A DNA stretch of 64,000 bases from assembly GCA_902569975.1 (NCBI GenBank), contig CACFWD010000001.1, forward strand, positions 62,001 through 126,000. Direction: 5' to 3'. Position numbers and translations under genes: made by a program. Source of the DNA: an uncultured Pelagibacteraceae bacterium. Its GTDB lineage: Bacteria > Pseudomonadota > Alphaproteobacteria > Pelagibacterales > Pelagibacteraceae. This document shows, piece by piece, positions 46,954 to 61,645 of this stretch. Numbering within the stretch: the stretch's first letter is position 1; every line of letters starts with the position of its first letter. The notes beneath the pieces were generated by a model, which was not told the DNA's origin, did no database searches, and saw only the letters and a list, made by a program, of their open reading frames with translations.

Positions 46954-48573
46954 TTACATATTTCCATATTTTGGGCCACCTCCACCCTCTGGTGTTATCC
47001 AAATAATATTTTGGGAAGGCTCTTTAATATCACATGTTTTACAGTGAATACAATTTTGAGAATTAATGACAAATTTATTTTGATTATTTTCCTTTTGGAC
47101 CTCATAAACTCCAGCTGGACAATATCTCTGAGCAGGCTCATCATATTTTTCTAGCGTATAATTAATTGGTAAATTAGGATCTTTTAGTTTCAAATGAACA
47201 GGTTGATTGTCTGCGTGATTAGTGCCAGTTAAGTATACAGAGCTTGTTTTGTCAAAAGTTAAGACGTTGTCGTATTTTGGATATTCTATTTTTGGCATTT
47301 GATTAGCAGGTTTTAATGTTTCATGATCGGCATGCTTATGTTTCAGAGTAAATGGAAGTCTTCCTCTGAATAATATTTGATCTATTCCTGTAAATATAAT
47401 TCCTAAAATTAATCCCCAGCTAAAACTTGGTTTAACATTTCTTGCCTTATATAACTCTTTATATAACCAACTCTCTTTAAAAATTTTTTCATAAACAGAT
47501 AAATTATCTCCTTTTTTAAAGTGATAATTAATTGTTTCCGCAGCAATTATTCCACTTTTCATTGCGGTGTGAGAACCTTTAATCTTTGGCATATTTAAAG
47601 TTCCAGCATCACAACCAATTAATAAAGCACCAGGCATGTACATTTTTGGTAAACTTTGAAATCCACCTTCTATTAGTGCTCTAGCTCCATATGAAATTCT
47701 TTTTCCACCTTCTATAATTTTTTTAATTGCTGGATGTGTTTTAAACCTCTGGAATTCATCATATGGAGATAAATGTGGATTTTTATAATCTAGACCAATT
47801 ACGTATCCTAAAAAAACTTGTTTATTTTCCGCATGATACATAAAACTTCCTCCATAAGTATTATTATCCAATGGCCATCCAGCGGTGTGCATTACTAAAC
47901 CCTCCTCATGATTTTTATCATCTATTTCCCAAATTTCTTTAAATCCTATTCCATATTGTTGAGGGTCTTTACCTTTGTCTAATTCAAATTTTTTAATAAG
48001 TTGTTTTCCCAAATGACCTCTACAACCTTCAGCAAAAACTGTTACTTTTCCTAAAAGCTCAATTCCTGGTTCAAAACTATCCTTTTTATTTCCATCTTTA
48101 TCTATTCCCATATCTTGAGTGATTACACCTTTAACAGATCCATCTTCATTATATAAAATTTCACTTGCCGGAAAACCTGGAAAGATTTCAACACCTAAAG
48201 TTTCAGCCTGTTCAGCAAGCCATCTACATAAATTTGCTAAACTTATAATATAATTTTTATGATTTTGTTGTACTGATGGAAGAAGCCATGTAGGCCAACT
48301 TAATGATTTTGTTTTTCCTAAAAATAAAAATTTTTCTTTTGTTACTTTTGTTTTAATTGGTGAATTTAATTCTCTCCAATTAGGTATTAATTCGTCTAAT
48401 GCACGTGTTTCAAAAACATTTCCACTTAAAATATGGGCTCCAATTTCTGAAGCTTTTTCTAACAAACAAACATTCAAACTTGAGTCTAATTGTTTTAACT
48501 TTATTGCTGTGGATAAACCAGATGGACCTCCACCTATGATAACAACATCATATTCCATTGACTCTCTAGACAT
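46954..48573 (-). CDS. electron transfer flavoprotein-ubiquinone oxidoreductase
   Basis: DVVIIGGGPSGLSTAIKLKQL, GAHILSGNVFETRALDELIPNW, LIGCDAGTLNMPKIKGSHTAMKSG, 4Fe-4S NCIHCKTCDIKEPSQNI. Confidence 0.96.
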   Translation of the reverse strand: MSRESMEYDVVIIGGGPSGLSTAIKLKQLDSSLNVCLLEKASEIGAHILSGNVFETRALDELIPNWRELNSPIKTKVTKEKFLFLGKTKSLSWPTWLLPSVQQNHKNYIISLANLCRWLAEQAETLGVEIFPGFPASEILYNEDGSVKGVITQDMGIDKDGNKKDSFEPGIELLGKVTVFAEGCRGHLGKQLIKKFELDKGKDPQQYGIGFKEIWEIDDKNHEEGLVMHTAGWPLDNNTYGGSFMYHAENKQVFLGYVIGLDYKNPHLSPYDEFQRFKTHPAIKKIIEGGKRISYGARALIEGGFQSLPKMYMPGALLIGCDAGTLNMPKIKGSHTAMKSGIIAAETINYHFKKGDNLSVYEKIFKESWLYKELYKARNVKPSFSWGLILGIIFTGIDQILFRGRLPFTLKHKHADHETLKPANQMPKIEYPKYDNVLTFDKTSSVYLTGTNHADNQPVHLKLKDPNLPINYTLEKYDEPAQRYCPAGVYEVQKENNQNKFVINSQNCIHCKTCDIKEPSQNIIWITPEGGGGPKYGNM

Positions 48574-48596: not shown

Positions 48597-49550
48597 TTAT
48601 TTTTGTATAGTGTTTAATTTGTTCAATTCTTCCATGAACTGAGGTATAGCCTCAAATAAGTCTGCCTCTAGACCGTAGTCTGCGACACTAAAAATGGGTG
48701 CTTCTCCATCTTTGTTAATTGCAACTATCACTTTACTTTCTTTCATTCCTGCTAAATGCTGAATTGCACCCGAAATTCCTATAGCGATATATAAATCTGG
48801 CACTACTACTTTTCCTGTTTGACCAACTTGATGATCATTGCTTATATATCCAGCATCTACTGCAGCTCTTGATGCTCCGATTGCTGCTCCAAGCTTATCA
48901 GCGATTTCAGTAATTAATTTAAAATTGTCTCCACTTTGCATTCCTCTTCCACCTGACACAACAATTCTTGCTGTTCCAAGTTCTGGTCTGTCAGATTTAA
49001 TTTCTTCCCTTTTAACAAATTTTGTATTTGAAAATTCTTCACTCGCTTCTACTTTTTCAATTGAAGCTGATCCCCCAGTACTTTCACATGGATCGAAGGA
49101 AGTTGGTCTTATAGTTACACATTTTTTATTGTCATTACTTTTAATTGTTGCAAAGGCATTTCCAGCATAAATTGGTCTTAAAAAAGTATCTGGTGATATT
49201 ACCTTAATAATATCACTTACCTGAGAAGTATCAAGATAAGCGGCAATCCGTGGCATTAAATTTTTTCCAAATGTATTTGCTGAACAAATAATATGAGAAT
49301 AATTCTCTGCAAGTTTAACAATCACTGGAGCAAAATTTTCTGCTGTGAAGTTTTCATAGTGAGCTGCCTCTACACTCAGTACTTTTTTAACTACTGAGAG
49401 TCCAGATAATTGTTTTGCAGCTTCTGCAGTGTTTTGACCAATAATTACGGCATGAACATCAGAATCAATTTGAGATGCAGCTGCAGCTGCATTAAGAGTA
49501 AATGGTCTTAACTCTTTATTATTATGCTCTGCTATAAGTAAAACTGCCAT
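48597..49550 (-). CDS. etfA: electron transfer flavoprotein alpha subunit
   Basis: RIVVSGGRGMQSGDNFKLITEIADKLGAAIGASRAAVDAGYISNDHQVGQTGKVVVPDLYIAIGISGAIQHLAGMKESKVIVAINKD. Confidence 0.96.
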   Translation of the reverse strand: MAVLLIAEHNNKELRPFTLNAAAAASQIDSDVHAVIIGQNTAEAAKQLSGLSVVKKVLSVEAAHYENFTAENFAPVIVKLAENYSHIICSANTFGKNLMPRIAAYLDTSQVSDIIKVISPDTFLRPIYAGNAFATIKSNDNKKCVTIRPTSFDPCESTGGSASIEKVEASEEFSNTKFVKREEIKSDRPELGTARIVVSGGRGMQSGDNFKLITEIADKLGAAIGASRAAVDAGYISNDHQVGQTGKVVVPDLYIAIGISGAIQHLAGMKESKVIVAINKDGEAPIFSVADYGLEADLFEAIPQFMEELNKLNTIQK

Positions 49551-50299
49551 TAAATTACCTTCGCCTCATTTTTTAATTTTTGAACTAATTCAGCAACATT
49601 TGCTACTTTTATACCTGCTTTTCTTTTTGGAGGCTCCTCTACTTTTAATTGTTCTATTCTTGATGATATATCTACACCTAAATCAGAGGCTAAAATCTCT
49701 TCAATAGGTTTTTTCTTGGCCTTCATTATATTTGGTAATGATGCATATCTTGGTTCATTCAACCTTAGATCACAAGTTACAATAGCTGGAACATTTATTT
49801 CAATTGTTTCAAGACCTTCATCTATTTCTCTAGTTACCTCCAATTTATTATCTTTAACATCAATCTTTGAAGCAAATGTTGCTTGTGGCCAATTTAGTAA
49901 AGCACTCAACATTTGGCCTGTTTGATTGCAATCATCATCAATTGCTTGTTTGCCCATAAATACTAAATCTGGTTTTTCTTTATCCACTATTTTTTGTAAA
50001 ATTTTTGAAACAGCAAGTGGTTCTAGAATTCCATCAACTTTTACATGAATACCTCTATCTGCACCAACGGCTAAAGCTTTCCTAACTGTTTCTTGAGCTT
50101 TTTCTTCTCCAACGGTTATTGCAACTACTTCTGTAGCTTTGCCTGCCTCTTTTATTTTAACAGCCTCTTCTATCGCATTGTCGTCAGGAGGATTCGTTGA
50201 CATTTTAACATTGTCAGTGACTATACCAGATCCATCTTCTTTAACTCTGATTTGAACGTTGTAATCAATAACTCTTTTTACAGCTACTAAAATTTTCAT
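49550..50299 (-). CDS. etfB: electron transfer flavoprotein beta subunit
   Basis: [70 protein letters not shown]. Confidence 0.96.
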
Positions 50300-52731
50300 T
50301 AAGCTCTCAATAAATTATTTTCTGAATCGTATGGACTTTCATCTAATACGGTAGCTTCGTACATTTCACCTAGTATATCAACTTGTAATTTGTCGCCTAC
50401 ATTTGAACAATCTGGTTTAACCATTGCAAGGGCTATTGATTTATCTAGCCTAAATCCAAATTCTCCCCCAGTTGCTCTTCCAACAACTTTTCCATCTTTA
50501 AAAATAGGATTATTTCCTAATACATCCGCATCTGTAGTATTATGAACCTCTAAAGTAACCAATTTATTATCAAAACCTTTTTCTCTCCATTTATTAAGTG
50601 CCTCTAAACCAATAAAGTTTCCTTTATTTGGGTGAACAAATCTATCTAGACCAGACTCATATGGTGAGTATTCGATTGATAATTCTGTACCAACTAGTTT
50701 GTAAGATTTTTCAACTCTAAGACTATTCATAGCTCTAATTCCAAAAGGCTTGATTCCTAAATCTTTTCCCGCTTCCATTAATTTATCAAAAATATGATTT
50801 TGATATTCAATTGGATGATGCAGTTCCCAACCAAGCTCGCCCACAAAGTTTACTCTCATCGCATTTACTGGAGCATATCCAACATTTACATTTTTAGCAG
50901 TCAGCCATTTGAAATTCTCATTAGAAAAATCATCTGTTGAAACCTTTTGCATTAATTGTCTAGCTTTAGGGCCTGCTACGACTAAAACTCCTGTGCTATT
51001 TGTTAAATCTTCAAATATTACTGATCCATCATCCGGCATCCATTTTTGAATCCAGTCATGATCTAATCGTAAATTTGCTCCAGCAGAAACTAAATAGTAA
51101 CTATTCTCTGCTTCTTTCATTATTGTAAACTCTGAATGTACTCCTCCTTTAGTATTCAGAGCGTGACATAAATTAATTCTTCCAATTTTTTTAGGAAGTT
51201 TATTTGCAACTAGATAATCTAAAAATTCCTCGGCTTTAGGCCCCCTAATTCTACATTTTGCAAATGCAGTCATATCTAAAAGGCCTACATTTTCTTTTAC
51301 ATTTTGACACTCTTTTTTAATTGCATCGAACCATTTTGATCTTCTAAATGACCAATCATCTTTTTGTTCCATTCCATCTGTTGCAAAAAAATTTGGTCTT
51401 TCCCATCCGAACTTCTGGCCAAATACAGCACCTAAATTTTTCATTCTTTCATAACAAGGAGCTGTTCTCAATGGTCTTGCTGCTGGTCTTTCTTCATCTG
51501 GATAATGAACTATGAAGACATGACTATATGCTTCTTCATTTTTTGCTTTTAAATAGGATTTAGTTGCATAATTTCCATAACGTCTTGGTTCAACACCTAA
51601 CATATCAATTGTAGGTTCACCATCAATGATCCATTCTGCTAATTGCCAACCTGCTCCACCTGCTGCTGTTATTCCAAAACTATGTCCTTCATTAATCCAA
51701 AAATTTTTAAGTCCCCACGCTGGTCCAACGATTGGATTTCCATCGGGAGTATAACATATTGCACCGTTATAAACTTTCTTTACTCCAACTTCTCCAAATG
51801 CAGGAACTCTATGAATTGCTCCTTCTATATGCGGAGCTAATCTGTCTAAGTCTTCTTGAAATAATTCATATTCAGAATTTTTCGACGGTCCTTCCAGATA
51901 ACAAGCCGGCGCACCATCTTCATAAGGACCTAATATTAATCCTCCGGCCTCTTCTCTCATATACCATCTACTATCACTATCTCTCAAGACACCCATTTCT
52001 GGTAATCCATCTTTTTTTCTTTTTTGAATTGCAGGGTGAGGTTCTGTGACTATGTATTGATGCTCCACAGGAATTACTGGAACATCTAATCCTACCATTT
52101 CACCTGTTTGTCTTGCAAAATTTCCAGAACAAGAGATAACGTGTTCACACTCAATTGATCCTTTATCTGTTTCCACAACCCATCCATCTTTAGTTTGTCT
52201 CATTGATAGAACGGTTGTGTTTCTATAAATTTCAGCTCCTCTATTCCTTGCACCTGTTGCTAAAGCTTGAGTTAAATCTGCTGGTTGAATATATCCATCC
52301 TCTGGATGCTGTATTGCACCAACCAAATCATCTGTATGACACAACGGCCAAATTTCTTTTACTTGTTCTGGTTTTAAAAATTTTACATCTACTCCAATAG
52401 TTCGGGCAACACCTGCATATTGATGATACTCATCCATTCTGTCTTTTGTACTTGCTAAACGAATATTTGAAACAACGCTAAAGCCAACATTTTTTCCAGT
52501 TTCTTCTTCCAATGTTTTATAAAGATTAACTGCGTATTTATGTAGTTGTCCCACAGAATAACTCATATTAAACAAAGGTAATAATCCTGCAGCATGCCAA
52601 GTAGATCCTGAAGTTAATTCTTTTCTTTCGATTAAGACAACATCTGACCAACCTTTTTTTGCCAAATGGTATAAAGCGCTAACTCCAACCACTCCACCAC
52701 CAACTACTACAACTTTAGTTTTTGTTTTCAT
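50299..52731 (-). CDS. dimethylglycine/sarcosine dehydrogenase-like FAD oxidoreductase with GcvT domain
   Basis: [46 protein letters not shown]; GcvT-like [54 protein letters not shown]. Confidence 0.93.
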
Positions 52732-56853: not shown

Positions 56854-57228
56854 CTATTTTAGCTTTCCTTCTTCTCTCATCTTAGCTCTAATTTTAGTAG
56901 CTGAAATTTTCTGTATTTCTTCAGGTAATTCAATCTCCTCAATTTTATATCCAACACCTCTGCCATAACAAATATTGGTAATATTAGGCACTAACATTAT
57001 TTTAAATCTTCCCTCGAATTCTGGACTTAATCTGTCCTCTATATTTTTTTTAACTGTTTCAAAATTAAAAGGATTATCATCTACACCTTGAACATCTCTT
57101 ATTTGAATACAAACTTGACCTGTTTTTTTAATTATTTCTTTAAATAAAGTATAATGACCATCATGAAATGGTTGCCATCTTCCTAACATTTGTGCTGTTG
57201 GTTTTTTATTGTCCCATTCGTAAGCCAT
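56854..57228 (-). CDS. nucleotidyltransferase (cytidylyltransferase-like fold)
   Basis: AQMLGRWQPFHDGHYTLFKEIIKKTGQVCIQIRDVQG (HxGH-like HDGH), C-terminal ISATKIRAKM. Confidence 0.75.
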   Translation of the reverse strand: MAYEWDNKKPTAQMLGRWQPFHDGHYTLFKEIIKKTGQVCIQIRDVQGVDDNPFNFETVKKNIEDRLSPEFEGRFKIMLVPNITNICYGRGVGYKIEEIELPEEIQKISATKIRAKMREEGKLK

Positions 57229-57635
57229 TATTTTATTTCCTTTAATATTTTAGGTGCCCAGTTTTTAGCATCTTGAGTGGTAACATGGAAGTTATACTTA
57301 TCTGGTTTAACAAACATTTTATTGGTATCATCAAATCTACCCTCTTTGATAGTGTCGACCCAAATAATATAATCAGCTGGAAATAAACTTCTTGCTTCAG
57401 GTGTTGGACAAATAAAATCTGCAACAACATAACTTCCATCTTCTCTCATCTTTAGAGCAAAGTCTGCCATTCTTTTGGCTTGCCTTTTTCTCCCCTCCTC
57501 TGAAAAATCCCAATCATTAGCTTCTTTTCTAACTTCATCTGCATTTAATCTTTTTGCATTTAGCATTGGAGCTAATTCATTAGCTAAAGTTGTTTTGCCA
57601 GATCCAGGTAATCCCATTATTAATATAATTTTCAT
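57228..57635 (-). CDS. P-loop kinase, adenylylsulfate-kinase-like
   Basis: MKIILIMGLPGSGKTTLANELAPMLNAKRLNADEVRKEANDWDFSEEGRKRQAKRMADFALKM; true start at 57635. Confidence 0.8.
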   Translation of the reverse strand: MKIILIMGLPGSGKTTLANELAPMLNAKRLNADEVRKEANDWDFSEEGRKRQAKRMADFALKMREDGSYVVADFICPTPEARSLFPADYIIWVDTIKEGRFDDTNKMFVKPDKYNFHVTTQDAKNWAPKILKEIK

Positions 57636-58261
57636 TATTTTACTCGATACAATCCAAGCCAAGCATTTACATCTTTGCTGGCAATATAATCTGATTTAAA
57701 AAACTCTAATTCTTCCCATTTATTATCTTGTTTTAAATTTTTGATTTTTTTATCAAAGCCATAATCTTTGTAGATACCTTCGTTGATTGTGAAACAAATC
57801 AATCCATCTTTTTTTGTTACTCGAACAAATTCATCTAAAGCTTGTGGTTTTACATGTCCAAAAGTAAAAGTTCCAACACACATTGTTGCATCATAAAAAT
57901 TATCTTTAACATCAATAGGTTTATTTAAGTCAACTTTTATTAGTTTTTGATAAAGTTGATTTGGAACAGTATCAAGTAATTTTTGTGATAGATCGGCTCC
58001 GTGAAAATTTCTAAAACCATATTTTTTTAATTGCAAACCTACTAAACCAGTACCACATCCTGCATCGAATACGAGCATTTCTTTATTTTCAGTATATCTT
58101 CTAAAAACATCAACAGTTTCTTGTGGTCCTGTATAATTCCACTCAACCATATCTTTATTATATTTATTTTTTTCACCCCACTCATCATAATATTTCATAA
58201 CTTCATCAGTGGTCTTAAGTTTGTATATGGGAACTTTATTTCCAACATCTTTAAGTGCCAT
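57635..58261 (-). CDS. class I SAM-dependent methyltransferase
   Basis: MLVFDAGCGTGLVGLQLKKYGFRNFHGADLSQKLLD...DATMCVGTFTFGHVKPQALDEFVRVTKKDGLICFTINE. Confidence 0.85.
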   Translation of the reverse strand: MALKDVGNKVPIYKLKTTDEVMKYYDEWGEKNKYNKDMVEWNYTGPQETVDVFRRYTENKEMLVFDAGCGTGLVGLQLKKYGFRNFHGADLSQKLLDTVPNQLYQKLIKVDLNKPIDVKDNFYDATMCVGTFTFGHVKPQALDEFVRVTKKDGLICFTINEGIYKDYGFDKKIKNLKQDNKWEELEFFKSDYIASKDVNAWLGLYRVK

Positions 58262-58269
58262 TTTAAATA

Positions 58270-59481
58270 TTACTCCATTAAACTATTTGCTACCCATTTA
58301 TGAAATTGATGAGTTGGTTGATCCATTATAGGTGAAAAATTTCCACCATTGTACACTGGTGAGTTTCTACCTTCTTGCATTCCTTCAATTGCATTTATGT
58401 CCTCTAACATAACATCTTTCCAAAATCTTGAATTCTCTTTTCTTAATTCTTTTAACTCTACTCCATTTGCACTTTCATTACCTACATAATACATTTGCAT
58501 ATGCTCTTTAGTTTTGTTCATAGTTAAAGGTTCTAACCAAAAAACATAAAAGTGATCTATATGCAAACCAATCATTACATTTGGAAATAAAGCTATATAT
58601 TCTGAATTTTTTAACATATCTTTATCCCAATTAGAGAAAGTATTAAACTTTTTATTTCCTTTGGTGGGTTGTTCATATTTTTTGCTTCCTTGTCCAGCAA
58701 ATCTATTAGGTAATCCTTGAATGTGATAATGATCATTAATATTTGAAACCTTATTTAATTCTGGATGAATTGTTGGCAAGTGATAACTCTCACAATAATT
58801 TTCTATTGCAAATTTCCAATTACAATTAACTTCTAAACTAAAGTAACCATAATCCTTTGAATGAACTAAAGATTTGTAATCATCTTTATTAATGAACTTT
58901 TGCCATCTATTTTCTAAAGGTTTGATATATTCATCAAACTCAATTTCATTTGAATTAATATTTACAAAAATTATATCCATCCAAACTCTGGTTTTAACCT
59001 CTTTTAATTTACTTTTTGACTTATCAAAATTTTCTAATTTATGATTATTCAGACCGCCAATATGTGGTGTTGCGATAAGATTTCCATTGAGATCATACGA
59101 CCAAGAATGATAAGGACATCTAATTACATTTTTTAAGCTACGTGGTTTATCTAAAAGTTTAAAACCTCTATGACTACAAACATTATGAAATACTCGAATC
59201 TTCATGTCTTTATCTCTTAACAAAATCAATGGAATCCCAAGTAGATTGTGTGGTTTAGCATCTCCAGGATTGGGAATGGAACTTGCTACCCCAATTACCG
59301 TCCATTTGTTATAAAAAACCTTTTCTCTTTCATAGGTCAAATAATCATTATTTATATAACACTCATTAGGCAGGCCATTAGCTACTTCTATTGTTTGATC
59401 AACATTATTGAGTTTCTCAATATCTAGTATTTTTGATAAGGGTAAATTTTTAAGATTTTGATGCACAAAAAAAATTATCAT
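58270..59481 (-). CDS. Rieske 2Fe-2S aromatic-ring-hydroxylating-type oxygenase alpha subunit
   Basis: VFHNVCSHRGFKLLDKPRSLKNVIRCPYHSWSYDLNG (CxH..CxxH) and NYCESYHLPTIHPELN (mononuclear Fe site); start moved from 59676. Confidence 0.92.
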   Translation of the reverse strand: MIIFFVHQNLKNLPLSKILDIEKLNNVDQTIEVANGLPNECYINNDYLTYEREKVFYNKWTVIGVASSIPNPGDAKPHNLLGIPLILLRDKDMKIRVFHNVCSHRGFKLLDKPRSLKNVIRCPYHSWSYDLNGNLIATPHIGGLNNHKLENFDKSKSKLKEVKTRVWMDIIFVNINSNEIEFDEYIKPLENRWQKFINKDDYKSLVHSKDYGYFSLEVNCNWKFAIENYCESYHLPTIHPELNKVSNINDHYHIQGLPNRFAGQGSKKYEQPTKGNKKFNTFSNWDKDMLKNSEYIALFPNVMIGLHIDHFYVFWLEPLTMNKTKEHMQMYYVGNESANGVELKELRKENSRFWKDVMLEDINAIEGMQEGRNSPVYNGGNFSPIMDQPTHQFHKWVANSLME

Positions 59482-59520
59482 GAGCATAATTTTTGGCAAC
59501 AAATTTCGCCGCACCCATAA

Positions 59521-60294
59521 ATGAATTTCTTTGACAGCTTTTTCAAAAAGGATAATGATCGAGAAATGAAATTTTCTTTGGAAATAGGACCTCAAACAGA
59601 CCTTGAAACAGTTCCGAATGTAAGTGATGTTTATATAACCATGCTGCCAGGCGGAGACTATAAAGAGACGGCACAACAGGCAGTTGAGTTAGTCAAAAAG
59701 GGTTTTAATCCAGTCCCCCATTTTCCAGCAAGATCAATGCAAGATGAAAAGCAGCTAAAAGATTATGTTTCTAGATGTAAAGATGGAGGAGTAAAACAAG
59801 TTTTAGTGATTGGTGGTGGCAGAGAACCGATGGGAAAATTTGATAGCTCTTTCCAACTTTTAGAGACTGGTTATTTTGAGAAAATGACAATAGGAATTGC
59901 TGGACACCCAGAGGGGAGTCCTGATATATCCGATTCAGAATTAGAAAAAGCTATGATTAACAAAAAGCCTTACGCTGATTATATAGTAACTCAATGGTTA
60001 TTAGATCCTCAGCCAATCATAGATTTTATCTCTAAACAAAGCGTACCAGTGCATGTGGGAATTACTGGGCCTCTAAAAATATCTAGCTTAATCAAATTTG
60101 CTAATATTGTGGGTGCAAAAAATTCTCTAAATTTTCTTAAATCTAATTTTAGTAAGGCGTTAGATTTATTAAAACCTAAAGACCCTAATGATCTAATTGG
60201 GAAAGTTAAATCGCATACAGATTTCTTCCACATTTATACATTCGGCGGCTTGAAGGAAACTAACAAGTGGTTGAAGGAGAATGGTTATGTCTAA
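59521..60294 (+). CDS. methylenetetrahydrofolate reductase-like protein
   Basis: FSLEIGPQTDLETVPNVSDVYITMLPGGDYKETAQQAVELVKKGFNPVPHFPARSMQDEKQL...VLVIGGGREPMG...GIAGHPEGSPD. Confidence 0.8.
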   Translation: MNFFDSFFKKDNDREMKFSLEIGPQTDLETVPNVSDVYITMLPGGDYKETAQQAVELVKKGFNPVPHFPARSMQDEKQLKDYVSRCKDGGVKQVLVIGGGREPMGKFDSSFQLLETGYFEKMTIGIAGHPEGSPDISDSELEKAMINKKPYADYIVTQWLLDPQPIIDFISKQSVPVHVGITGPLKISSLIKFANIVGAKNSLNFLKSNFSKALDLLKPKDPNDLIGKVKSHTDFFHIYTFGGLKETNKWLKENGYV

Positions 60295-61645
60295 AGAATT
60301 TGATTATACTAAACTAAAACATGTTACTTCAGTTAATCAATCAGATCGAAAAGTACCATATAATTTAAGACAAAGTGGGCCAACTAAGGTTGAAATGTTA
60401 ATTTCAACAAGAGTAAGAAAATCACCTTATTGGCATTTATCAATGCAGGCAGGTTGCTGGAGAGCAACTGTTTATAATCGTATTTACCATCCAAGAGGAT
60501 ATGTAAAACCTGAAGATGGTGGAGCTATGGTTGAATATGATGCGATTGTAAATCACGTAACTATGTGGAACGTAGCTGTTGAAAGACAAATCCAAGTTAA
60601 AGGTCCCGATGCAGAAAAGTTTGTTGATTATGTGATTACAAGAGATGCAACAAAAATTTCACCGATGAGAGCAAGATATGTAATTTTATGTAATGCTTAT
60701 GGTGGTGTTTTAAATGATCCAATTCTTTTAAGAATTTCTAAAGATGAATTTTGGTTTTCATTATCAGACTCTGATATTGGTATGTATTTGCAAGGTGTGA
60801 ATGCAGATGGAAGATTTAATTGTACCATTCAAGAAATTGATGCTTGTCCTGTTCAAATACAAGGTCCAAAATCAAAATCTCTGATGAAAGATTTATTAGG
60901 TGATCAAGTTGACTTAGAAAATATGCCATTTTATGGTCTGGCTGAAGTTAAAGTTGCAGGGCGAAGTTGTGTGATTTCTCAATCAGGATTTTCTGGAGAA
61001 GCTGGCTATGAAATATATTTAAGAGATGCAACTCTATATGCTGATGAAATGTGGAATGCTGTGCTTGAGGCTGGAAAAAAACACCAGCTTATGGTTATTG
61101 CACCAGCTCACCATAGAAGAATCCAAGCTGGTATTTTGTCTTGGGGACAGGATATGGATATGCAGCATAATCCTTTTCAATGTAACTTGGGCTACCAGGT
61201 TTCTTTATCAGGAAAAGGTGAATGGAACAAAACCTCTGATTATGTTGGTAAAGCTGCACTTGAAAAAATGGGTAAAGAACTTAAAGATGGTAAGAAACCA
61301 TACTCACTTCAGTTGGTTGGATTAGAGTTAGGTGGAAAACCTATTGATGATTATGCGCCAGATTTTTGGTTAATATCAAATGAGAATGGTGGAGATCCAG
61401 TTGGTTTCATTACTTCACCATGGTGGCATCCTGAAAAAAAAACTAACATTGCAATGGGATATGTTCCTTTTGATGGAACATTAAATGCAAATGGATTTCC
61501 AAAAGGTAAGGTTGGAACTAAATATAAAGTTCATTTACCTGAAAAATACTCTGATACTCCAGGAAAGCCTGTAGATGCAGTAATAGTAGATATTCCATTC
61601 AAAGAGTCTTTCAACGCCAATACAAGAGAAGTTTCAAAAGGTTAA
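60281..61645 (+). CDS. GcvT-family THF-dependent methyltransferase (DmdA/LigM-like)
   Basis: RKSPYWHLSMQAGCWRATVYNRIYHP, VTMWNVAVERQIQVKGPDAEKFVDYVITRD, VQIQGPKSKSLMKDL, SQSGFSGEAGYEIYL. Confidence 0.88.
   Translation: MVMSKEFDYTKLKHVTSVNQSDRKVPYNLRQSGPTKVEMLISTRVRKSPYWHLSMQAGCWRATVYNRIYHPRGYVKPEDGGAMVEYDAIVNHVTMWNVAVERQIQVKGPDAEKFVDYVITRDATKISPMRARYVILCNAYGGVLNDPILLRISKDEFWFSLSDSDIGMYLQGVNADGRFNCTIQEIDACPVQIQGPKSKSLMKDLLGDQVDLENMPFYGLAEVKVAGRSCVISQSGFSGEAGYEIYLRDATLYADEMWNAVLEAGKKHQLMVIAPAHHRRIQAGILSWGQDMDMQHNPFQCNLGYQVSLSGKGEWNKTSDYVGKAALEKMGKELKDGKKPYSLQLVGLELGGKPIDDYAPDFWLISNENGGDPVGFITSPWWHPEKKTNIAMGYVPFDGTLNANGFPKGKVGTKYKVHLPEKYSDTPGKPVDAVIVDIPFKESFNANTREVSKG

Follow-up and report, generated by a model that had tools for sequence, protein, structure and literature searches.

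A conserved MTHFR-GcvT gene pair in SAR11 bacteria as a candidate module for glycine betaine demethylation onto tetrahydrofolate

Several described systems resemble parts of the locus considered here. DmdA of P. ubique (SAR11_0246, PDB 3TFH) demethylates dimethylsulfoniopropionate (DMSP) and yields 5-methyl-tetrahydrofolate (5-methyl-THF). Lignin O-demethylation in Sphingobium SYK-6 follows a logic in which a GcvT-type demethylase (LigM or DesA, with aryl methyl ethers as substrates) is coupled to an MTHFR. BHMT and MtgBCD take the first methyl off glycine betaine to give dimethylglycine, and a 2025 study attributed glycine betaine demethylation in SAR11 to BHMT (PMC12478193). Here we analyze a 64,000-nucleotide stretch (the window) of a SAR11 (Pelagibacteraceae) genome, designated G000 and 62% complete; relatives are cited below as loci (L) and genomes (G). 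In it, an MTHFR-like gene (59566..60294, + strand) overlaps a gene for a GcvT/DmdA-like THF methyltransferase (60287..61645, + strand), divergent from a gene for a Rieske oxygenase (58270..59487, − strand). We propose that the GcvT-like protein may perform the same overall reaction as BHMT and MtgBCD, which belong to the unrelated families PF02574 and PF06253 and use homocysteine or cobalamin acceptors. A preliminary description of this stretch had instead read the three genes as one candidate oxidative demethylation pathway for a methylated osmolyte. All three open reading frames are present, and Pfam scores confirm the families that it named.

The GcvT-like protein scores 136.6 bits against PF01571 (cut-off 25.6). 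Its best PDB match is DmdA (3tfh), which is also the best fold match of its AlphaFold2 model (pLDDT 84; TM 0.92 by target). In a maximum-likelihood tree of 84 GcvT-domain sequences, several of whose long branches were flagged, it belongs to a clade of 30 (support 99/97) that spans many alphaproteobacteria, further lineages of the phylum and haloarchaeal plasmids. Homologs are 64–98% identical in most proteobacteria and 50–57% identical on the haloarchaeal plasmids. A third clade, also DmdA-like, groups with true DmdA to form its sister, and the three clades are joined at 100/99, separate from glycine-cleavage T-protein, trimethylamine N-oxide demethylase-like and oxidase-fused domains. The phylogeny that the preliminary description had proposed as a check places the protein in a clade of its own, outside these groups. 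In the third clade (L175, L177, L176, L178 and L151), three members tested score 371–394 bits on the DmdA equivalog model NF009133, slightly below its cut-off of 410, and the gene on a Phaeobacter plasmid is accompanied by genes for OsmC, enoyl-CoA hydratase and acyl-CoA synthetase.

The GcvT-like protein is 25–30% identical to DmdA, from which it differs in several respects. It carries a conserved N-terminal extension of about 40 residues and has a longer C-terminal half. It scores 229 bits on NF009133 and other members of its clade 245–270, whereas true DmdA proteins reach 536–601 (587 for SAR11 DmdA). It likewise fails the NCBIfam GcvT models (147.7 and 127.3 bits; cut-offs 300 and 235.85), and a separate GCV_T gene (266 bits) is present in the same genome; the LigM and DesA models give 39.3 and 44.1 bits against cut-offs of 580 and 800. 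The THF-contact residues E244, Y246, S160 and D146 are invariant across the GcvT-like family, the third clade and DmdA. At the position of the reported key DMSP-contact tryptophan (W171 in the numbering of PMC7487153, and by offset W197 in the 3TFH chain), all four DmdA sequences of our alignment A2 have W or Y, whereas 19 of 20 GcvT-like family members have phenylalanine (F237). The family has a strongly conserved signature of invariant residues (R23, P26, N28-L29-R30-Q31, G33 and N145-D146). It also has the clade-specific residues W60, H70 and W381, which are candidates only for an aromatic cage. Judged from sequence and modeled structure, the protein appears to work on the DmdA plan yet is not DmdA. 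The caution in the preliminary description against assuming DMSP as substrate was well placed, since the protein falls outside the DmdA clade and below the DmdA cut-off.

The MTHFR-like protein is, from its sequence, a divergent member of its family. It scores 26.9 bits on PF02219 (gathering score 24) and 26.2 bits on TIGR00676 (fadh2), far under the cut-off of 293.7. Its sole PDB match is a 5,10-methylenetetrahydrofolate reductase (7xg9, E 1.6e-32), which we take to be the SYK-6 MetF. The overlap of its gene with the GcvT-like gene, noted in the preliminary description, recurs in 110 of 110 SAR11 loci (L008–L117), so that it is not due to chance; given the kinship of the loci and the chance that the same organism was sampled more than once, this and the following locus counts are descriptive and do not represent 110 independent events. 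The idea that an MTHFR and a GcvT/DmdA-like protein form a unit for harvesting one-carbon (C1) groups from a methylated osmolyte is supported.

This pair corresponds to the known genes SAR11_1264 and SAR11_1265 of HTCC1062, matched by family, adjacency and gene order alone rather than by direct comparison with the HTCC1062 sequence. Sun et al. 2011 (PMC3160333) named them metF and aminomethyltransferase (AMT), listed the AMT substrate as unknown and guessed that it might be methylmercaptopropionate (MMPA). On that speculation the protein would take the second DMSP methyl, which we consider the least probable of the readings weighed here: a route for MMPA already exists, with dmdB- and dmdC-like genes (judged by size and appearance) beside dmdA in L231 and L232, and the context of the pair outside SAR11 does not fit. 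Moreover, a thioether methyl is a much poorer methyl donor than a sulfonium methyl. In the literature that we searched, no function has been assigned to SAR11_1265 and no activity shown. The mRNAs of the two genes drop together to 0.10–0.20 in stationary phase (PMC5069961), which fits an operon. An apparent induction of the pair under sulfur limitation was dropped, as the values 2.1 and 4.4 in the table of the same paper are percentages of sulfur amino acids.

Gene context outside SAR11 ties the pair to dimethylglycine and sarcosine oxidation across phyla. In L153–L155 the order is soxB, soxD, soxA, soxG, dehydrogenase, MTHFR, GcvT-like; in L152 it is GcvT-like, dehydrogenase, etfB, etfA; and in L161–L165 the dehydrogenase occurs together with the GcvT-like gene, mostly also with soxA. 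The dehydrogenase of L152 is 78% identical to a dimethylglycine-dehydrogenase-type flavoprotein in the window (50299..52731, − strand; Pfam DAO, FAO_M, GCV_T and GCV_T_C), which we take as SAR11_1253 and which lies about 8 kb from the pair. Directly downstream of it are open reading frames with the sequence appearance of electron transfer flavoprotein (ETF) beta (49550..50299, − strand) and alpha (48597..49550, − strand), followed by a putative ETF:quinone oxidoreductase (46954..48573, − strand) named from sequence appearance alone, without a family search; these genes together occupy 46.9–52.7 kb. The window order of dehydrogenase, cluster c23 (etfB) and cluster c24 (etfA) is preserved next to the GcvT-like gene in L152, and c24 is retained in L168 as well. 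With a single genome representing each family and a simple uniform-placement model, six of 11 other alphaproteobacterial families have a dimethylglycine-dehydrogenase-type gene no more than 10 kb from the GcvT-like gene, where 0.22 would be expected (P about 2e-8). This test leaves out the more distant proteobacterial genomes G585, G645 and G678, in which the only nearby relative is 32% identical. The linkage to dimethylglycine oxidation genes exceeds chance. Outside SAR11, then, the partner that is conserved is an oxidase of the dimethylglycine dehydrogenase type; the preliminary description made no connection to it, even though the SAR11 copy is in the window. The label "oxidative demethylation" given to the three genes in that description finds no support. 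Pfam searches of the neighbors in L156, L158, L162 and L166 gave no clue to substrate.

On haloarchaeal plasmid islands the GcvT-like homolog is again accompanied by an MTHFR. The further gene content differs from island to island and is drawn from FolD, formate-THF ligase, formate dehydrogenase, SHMT, one or two FAD oxidoreductases, creatininase, threonine ammonia-lyase and a BCCT transporter; locus L150 is without such a folate and glycine context. By their gene content these islands would serve folate C1 oxidation and glycine–serine metabolism. Those of L147–L149 and L233–L236 look like pathways that take in glycine betaine or creatine and lead to glycine, serine and pyruvate, and several carry folate synthesis genes of their own. 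In H. marismortui and others, genes resembling dimethylglycine oxidase have been described close to BCCT transporters, with the first-step enzyme not named (PMC3102087).

The co-occurrence analysis covered 51 genomes that are 90% complete or more. Seventeen of these near-complete genomes are SAR11 and carry the pair; the dehydrogenase is present in all 17, the Rieske gene in 14 and BHMT in six. A BHMT match is missing from the other 11, and three (G029, G037 and G056) have neither BHMT nor Rieske; the BHMT search used a SAR11 query at E 1e-20, which may overlook a distant enzyme, and an incomplete genome does not prove absence. G304, in which the GcvT-like gene stands beside the dehydrogenase, is without BHMT, MTTB-family and Rieske-type enzymes. 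A search for MTTB-family enzymes in five SAR11 genomes (G000, G012, G082, G350 and G440) and in G091 likewise found none. The BHMT and MtgB families are missing from several genomes with the pair. Conversely, two complete genomes belonging to the same family as the SAR11 set, G241 and G518, have neither the GcvT-like gene nor the dehydrogenase.

From the computed families, clade, gene pairing, linkage and co-occurrence we infer the substrate, the direction of the MTHFR and each catalytic step of the following scheme, which we regard as the best explanation of the pair, with a probability of roughly 55%. Using DmdA-like chemistry adjusted to a quaternary ammonium, the GcvT-like protein would move one N-methyl of glycine betaine directly onto THF, with no need for cobalamin, homocysteine or oxygen. 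The products would be dimethylglycine and 5-methyl-THF. The MTHFR-like protein would then run oxidatively, converting 5-methyl-THF to 5,10-methylene-THF. The next two methyls would be removed as methylene-THF by dimethylglycine dehydrogenase, together with ETF and ETF:quinone oxidoreductase, and by a sarcosine oxidase encoded elsewhere in the genome. The scheme accounts for the pairing: an MTHFR would accompany the GcvT-like protein because the product is methyl-THF, whereas the dehydrogenase and the sarcosine oxidase make methylene-THF themselves. Context suggests that what is missing ahead of dimethylglycine is the removal of the first methyl from glycine betaine. Membership in a superclade with the methyl-THF-making DmdA, and retention of the THF-contact Glu and Tyr (E244 and Y246), would also favor glycine betaine demethylation onto THF. 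The module is best redrawn as MTHFR and GcvT-like protein plus dimethylglycine dehydrogenase plus ETF, with the Rieske oxygenase optional.

Several observations weigh against this proposal. To our knowledge, direct transfer of a quaternary-amine methyl to THF without cobalamin has no precedent, and the substrate of the dimethylglycine-dehydrogenase-type protein is itself putative. Five of the 11 alphaproteobacterial families show no linkage to the dehydrogenase. The 92% complete SAR11 genome G009 has the dehydrogenase and no match to the GcvT-like clade, which is either an assembly gap or a true exception. Some pair-bearing genomes also have BHMT, so the proposed step would be redundant there. 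The most serious observation concerns transport: in 13 of 110 SAR11 loci (including L098 and L100), genes for an OpuAC-type DmpX-like protein and a permease lie upstream of MTHFR-GcvT on the same strand, and a further 12 show the permease alone at the end of a stretch too short to hold an OpuAC gene. In G082 (L217:5263-8027), binding protein, permease, MTHFR and GcvT-like genes follow one another on one strand. The sole PDB match of the L217 binding protein is the DMSP-binding DmpX (7YLE), and a printed alignment shows all eight reported DMSP-pocket residues kept (W35, T64, W84, E113, W152, A153, Y200 and W202). DmpX from Ruegeria binds betaine poorly; glycine betaine transport in SAR11 has been reported, with reference to Noell and Giovannoni, as multifunctional. 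As read from its sequence, the DmpX-like protein favors DMSP in those strains.

The principal rival is therefore a second, divergent DMSP demethylase, in which the GcvT-like protein would act on DMSP or a related sulfonium and the MTHFR would recycle methyl-THF. Besides the putative operons with a DmpX-like gene, it draws on DmdA being the closest solved relative and on a DddP-like gene nearby in L217. However, true DmdA coexists in the same genomes; because a separate DmdA is present in G350, G012, G082, G440 and G304, the DMSP role is already filled there. The low NF009133 scores of the GcvT-like family and its phenylalanine at the DMSP-contact position also argue against DMSP, the context outside SAR11 is N-methylglycine oxidation rather than DMSP genes, and homologs occur in haloarchaea of inland salt lakes and saline soils. 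It was the evidence from these putative operons that led us to go no higher than the figure given above for glycine betaine and to retain DMSP as an unlikely but serious alternative.

The Rieske gene is an optional neighbor rather than a third member of the module. Its product has the features of an alpha subunit, with the motif CSHR...CPYH and the catalytic domain (PF00355 63.6 bits, PF00848 157.9 bits), and its motif ENYCESYH places Glu at the bridging position. It belongs to the group of enzymes that includes the carnitine monooxygenase CntA and the glycine betaine monooxygenase GbcA, with which it shares this Glu. Its best PDB match is carnitine monooxygenase (6y9c/6y8j), and it scores 128.5 bits on the GbcA model NF058607 (cut-off 670). 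It probably acts on a betaine, and in our scheme it would be an alternative demethylase or hydroxylase for some betaine that supplies no required step. No reductase gene was identified beside it. The gene was described as a core member, divergent from the MTHFR gene; the divergence is real, and it makes a single pathway started by the Rieske oxygenase conceivable. Yet conservation of the neighborhood holds for the pair and not for this gene, which directly adjoins the pair in only 38 of 110 loci and is absent or replaced in many others. It is missing from three of the 17 near-complete genomes that retain the pair, and it was not found near the pair in the non-SAR11 alphaproteobacteria examined. 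Furthermore, a Rieske monooxygenase releases formaldehyde on demethylation, so that an MTHFR would not be needed. We therefore hold such a pathway to be very improbable, even though a Rieske gene also occurs in a Haloarcula marismortui island.

The affinities of the Rieske protein also bear on another reading, in which the GcvT-like protein demethylates some other betaine or N-methyl compound (proline betaine, carnitine, a choline-derived compound, homarine or trigonelline) and the Rieske oxygenase acts on the same pool. Its nearness to carnitine monooxygenase speaks for this, as does a 41% identical Rieske gene in L220 (L220:5415-11576), found with aldehyde dehydrogenase, DHDPS-family, DAO and homocysteine methyltransferase genes in what we presume to resemble a hydroxyproline-betaine catabolic cluster. 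The genes that constantly accompany the pair are of the dimethylglycine dehydrogenase and sarcosine oxidase types and fit glycine betaine best, and we judge this reading to be rather improbable. In other SAR11 the Rieske gene belongs to a cassette with BHMT-like and dehydrogenase genes. In L217, where the unit from binding protein to GcvT-like gene is divergent from it, this cassette (L217:8276-14787) comprises the Rieske, a BHMT-like gene, a dimethylglycine-dehydrogenase-like gene about 36% identical to that of the window, a SAM (S-adenosylmethionine) methyltransferase and a DddP-like M24 protein (360 bits; cut-off 600). Parts of it recur near the related Rieske gene in L220.

Refinement of the gene models alters the divergent region. 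The Rieske gene starts at a minus-strand ATG at 59487 or 59481, which replaces a TTG at 59676. MTHFR homology in many relatives begins 15 codons after 59521, the start assumed in the preliminary description, at an ATG at 59566 preceded by a GAGAA stretch, so this ATG is probably the start (242 amino acids) and the Rieske–MTHFR spacer is more likely about 80 bp than the ∼39 bp of the preliminary description. The GcvT-like start is more likely 60287 (MSKEF) than the alternative 60281; it gives an 8 bp overlap with the MTHFR stop, which is also seen in the relative L171. No Rfam match to a riboswitch or other known RNA was found in the window or six related loci.

The remaining neighbors vary. 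A SAM-dependent methyltransferase gene (57635..58261, − strand; PF08241 46.7 bits) is separated from the Rieske gene by 8 bp and is probably cotranscribed with it in the window; in other loci it is found with or without the Rieske gene. Beyond it lies a backbone gene for an APS-kinase-like P-loop kinase (57228..57662, − strand; PF01583 45 bits), which adjoins MTHFR in the Rieske-less loci L009, L011–L013, L039 and others. Of the 110 loci, 44 have a P-loop kinase, NMNAT-like or methyltransferase gene as direct neighbor on the divergent side of the pair, and 25 have a permease gene there, on the same strand and 11–75 bp off by alignment.

The gene pair was already known; judged by the literature searched, its assignment, its clade and its linkage across domains are new. 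We see about an even chance that this widespread, unassigned GcvT-fold clade, which SAR11 shares with other proteobacteria and with haloarchaea, transfers a methyl of glycine betaine directly onto THF with no cobalamin, homocysteine or oxygen, and so fills the first step where BHMT, MtgB and GbcA are lacking. If the pair is a demethylase, its conserved signature would provide a metagenome marker for glycine betaine turnover, and annotations reading DmdA-like, GcvT or aminomethyltransferase would be corrected. It would also explain how the use of glycine betaine could begin in haloarchaea equipped with dimethylglycine oxidases and BCCT transporters. Finally, it would fill the missing first step of glycine betaine use in some strains of SAR11, the commonest bacteria of the ocean.

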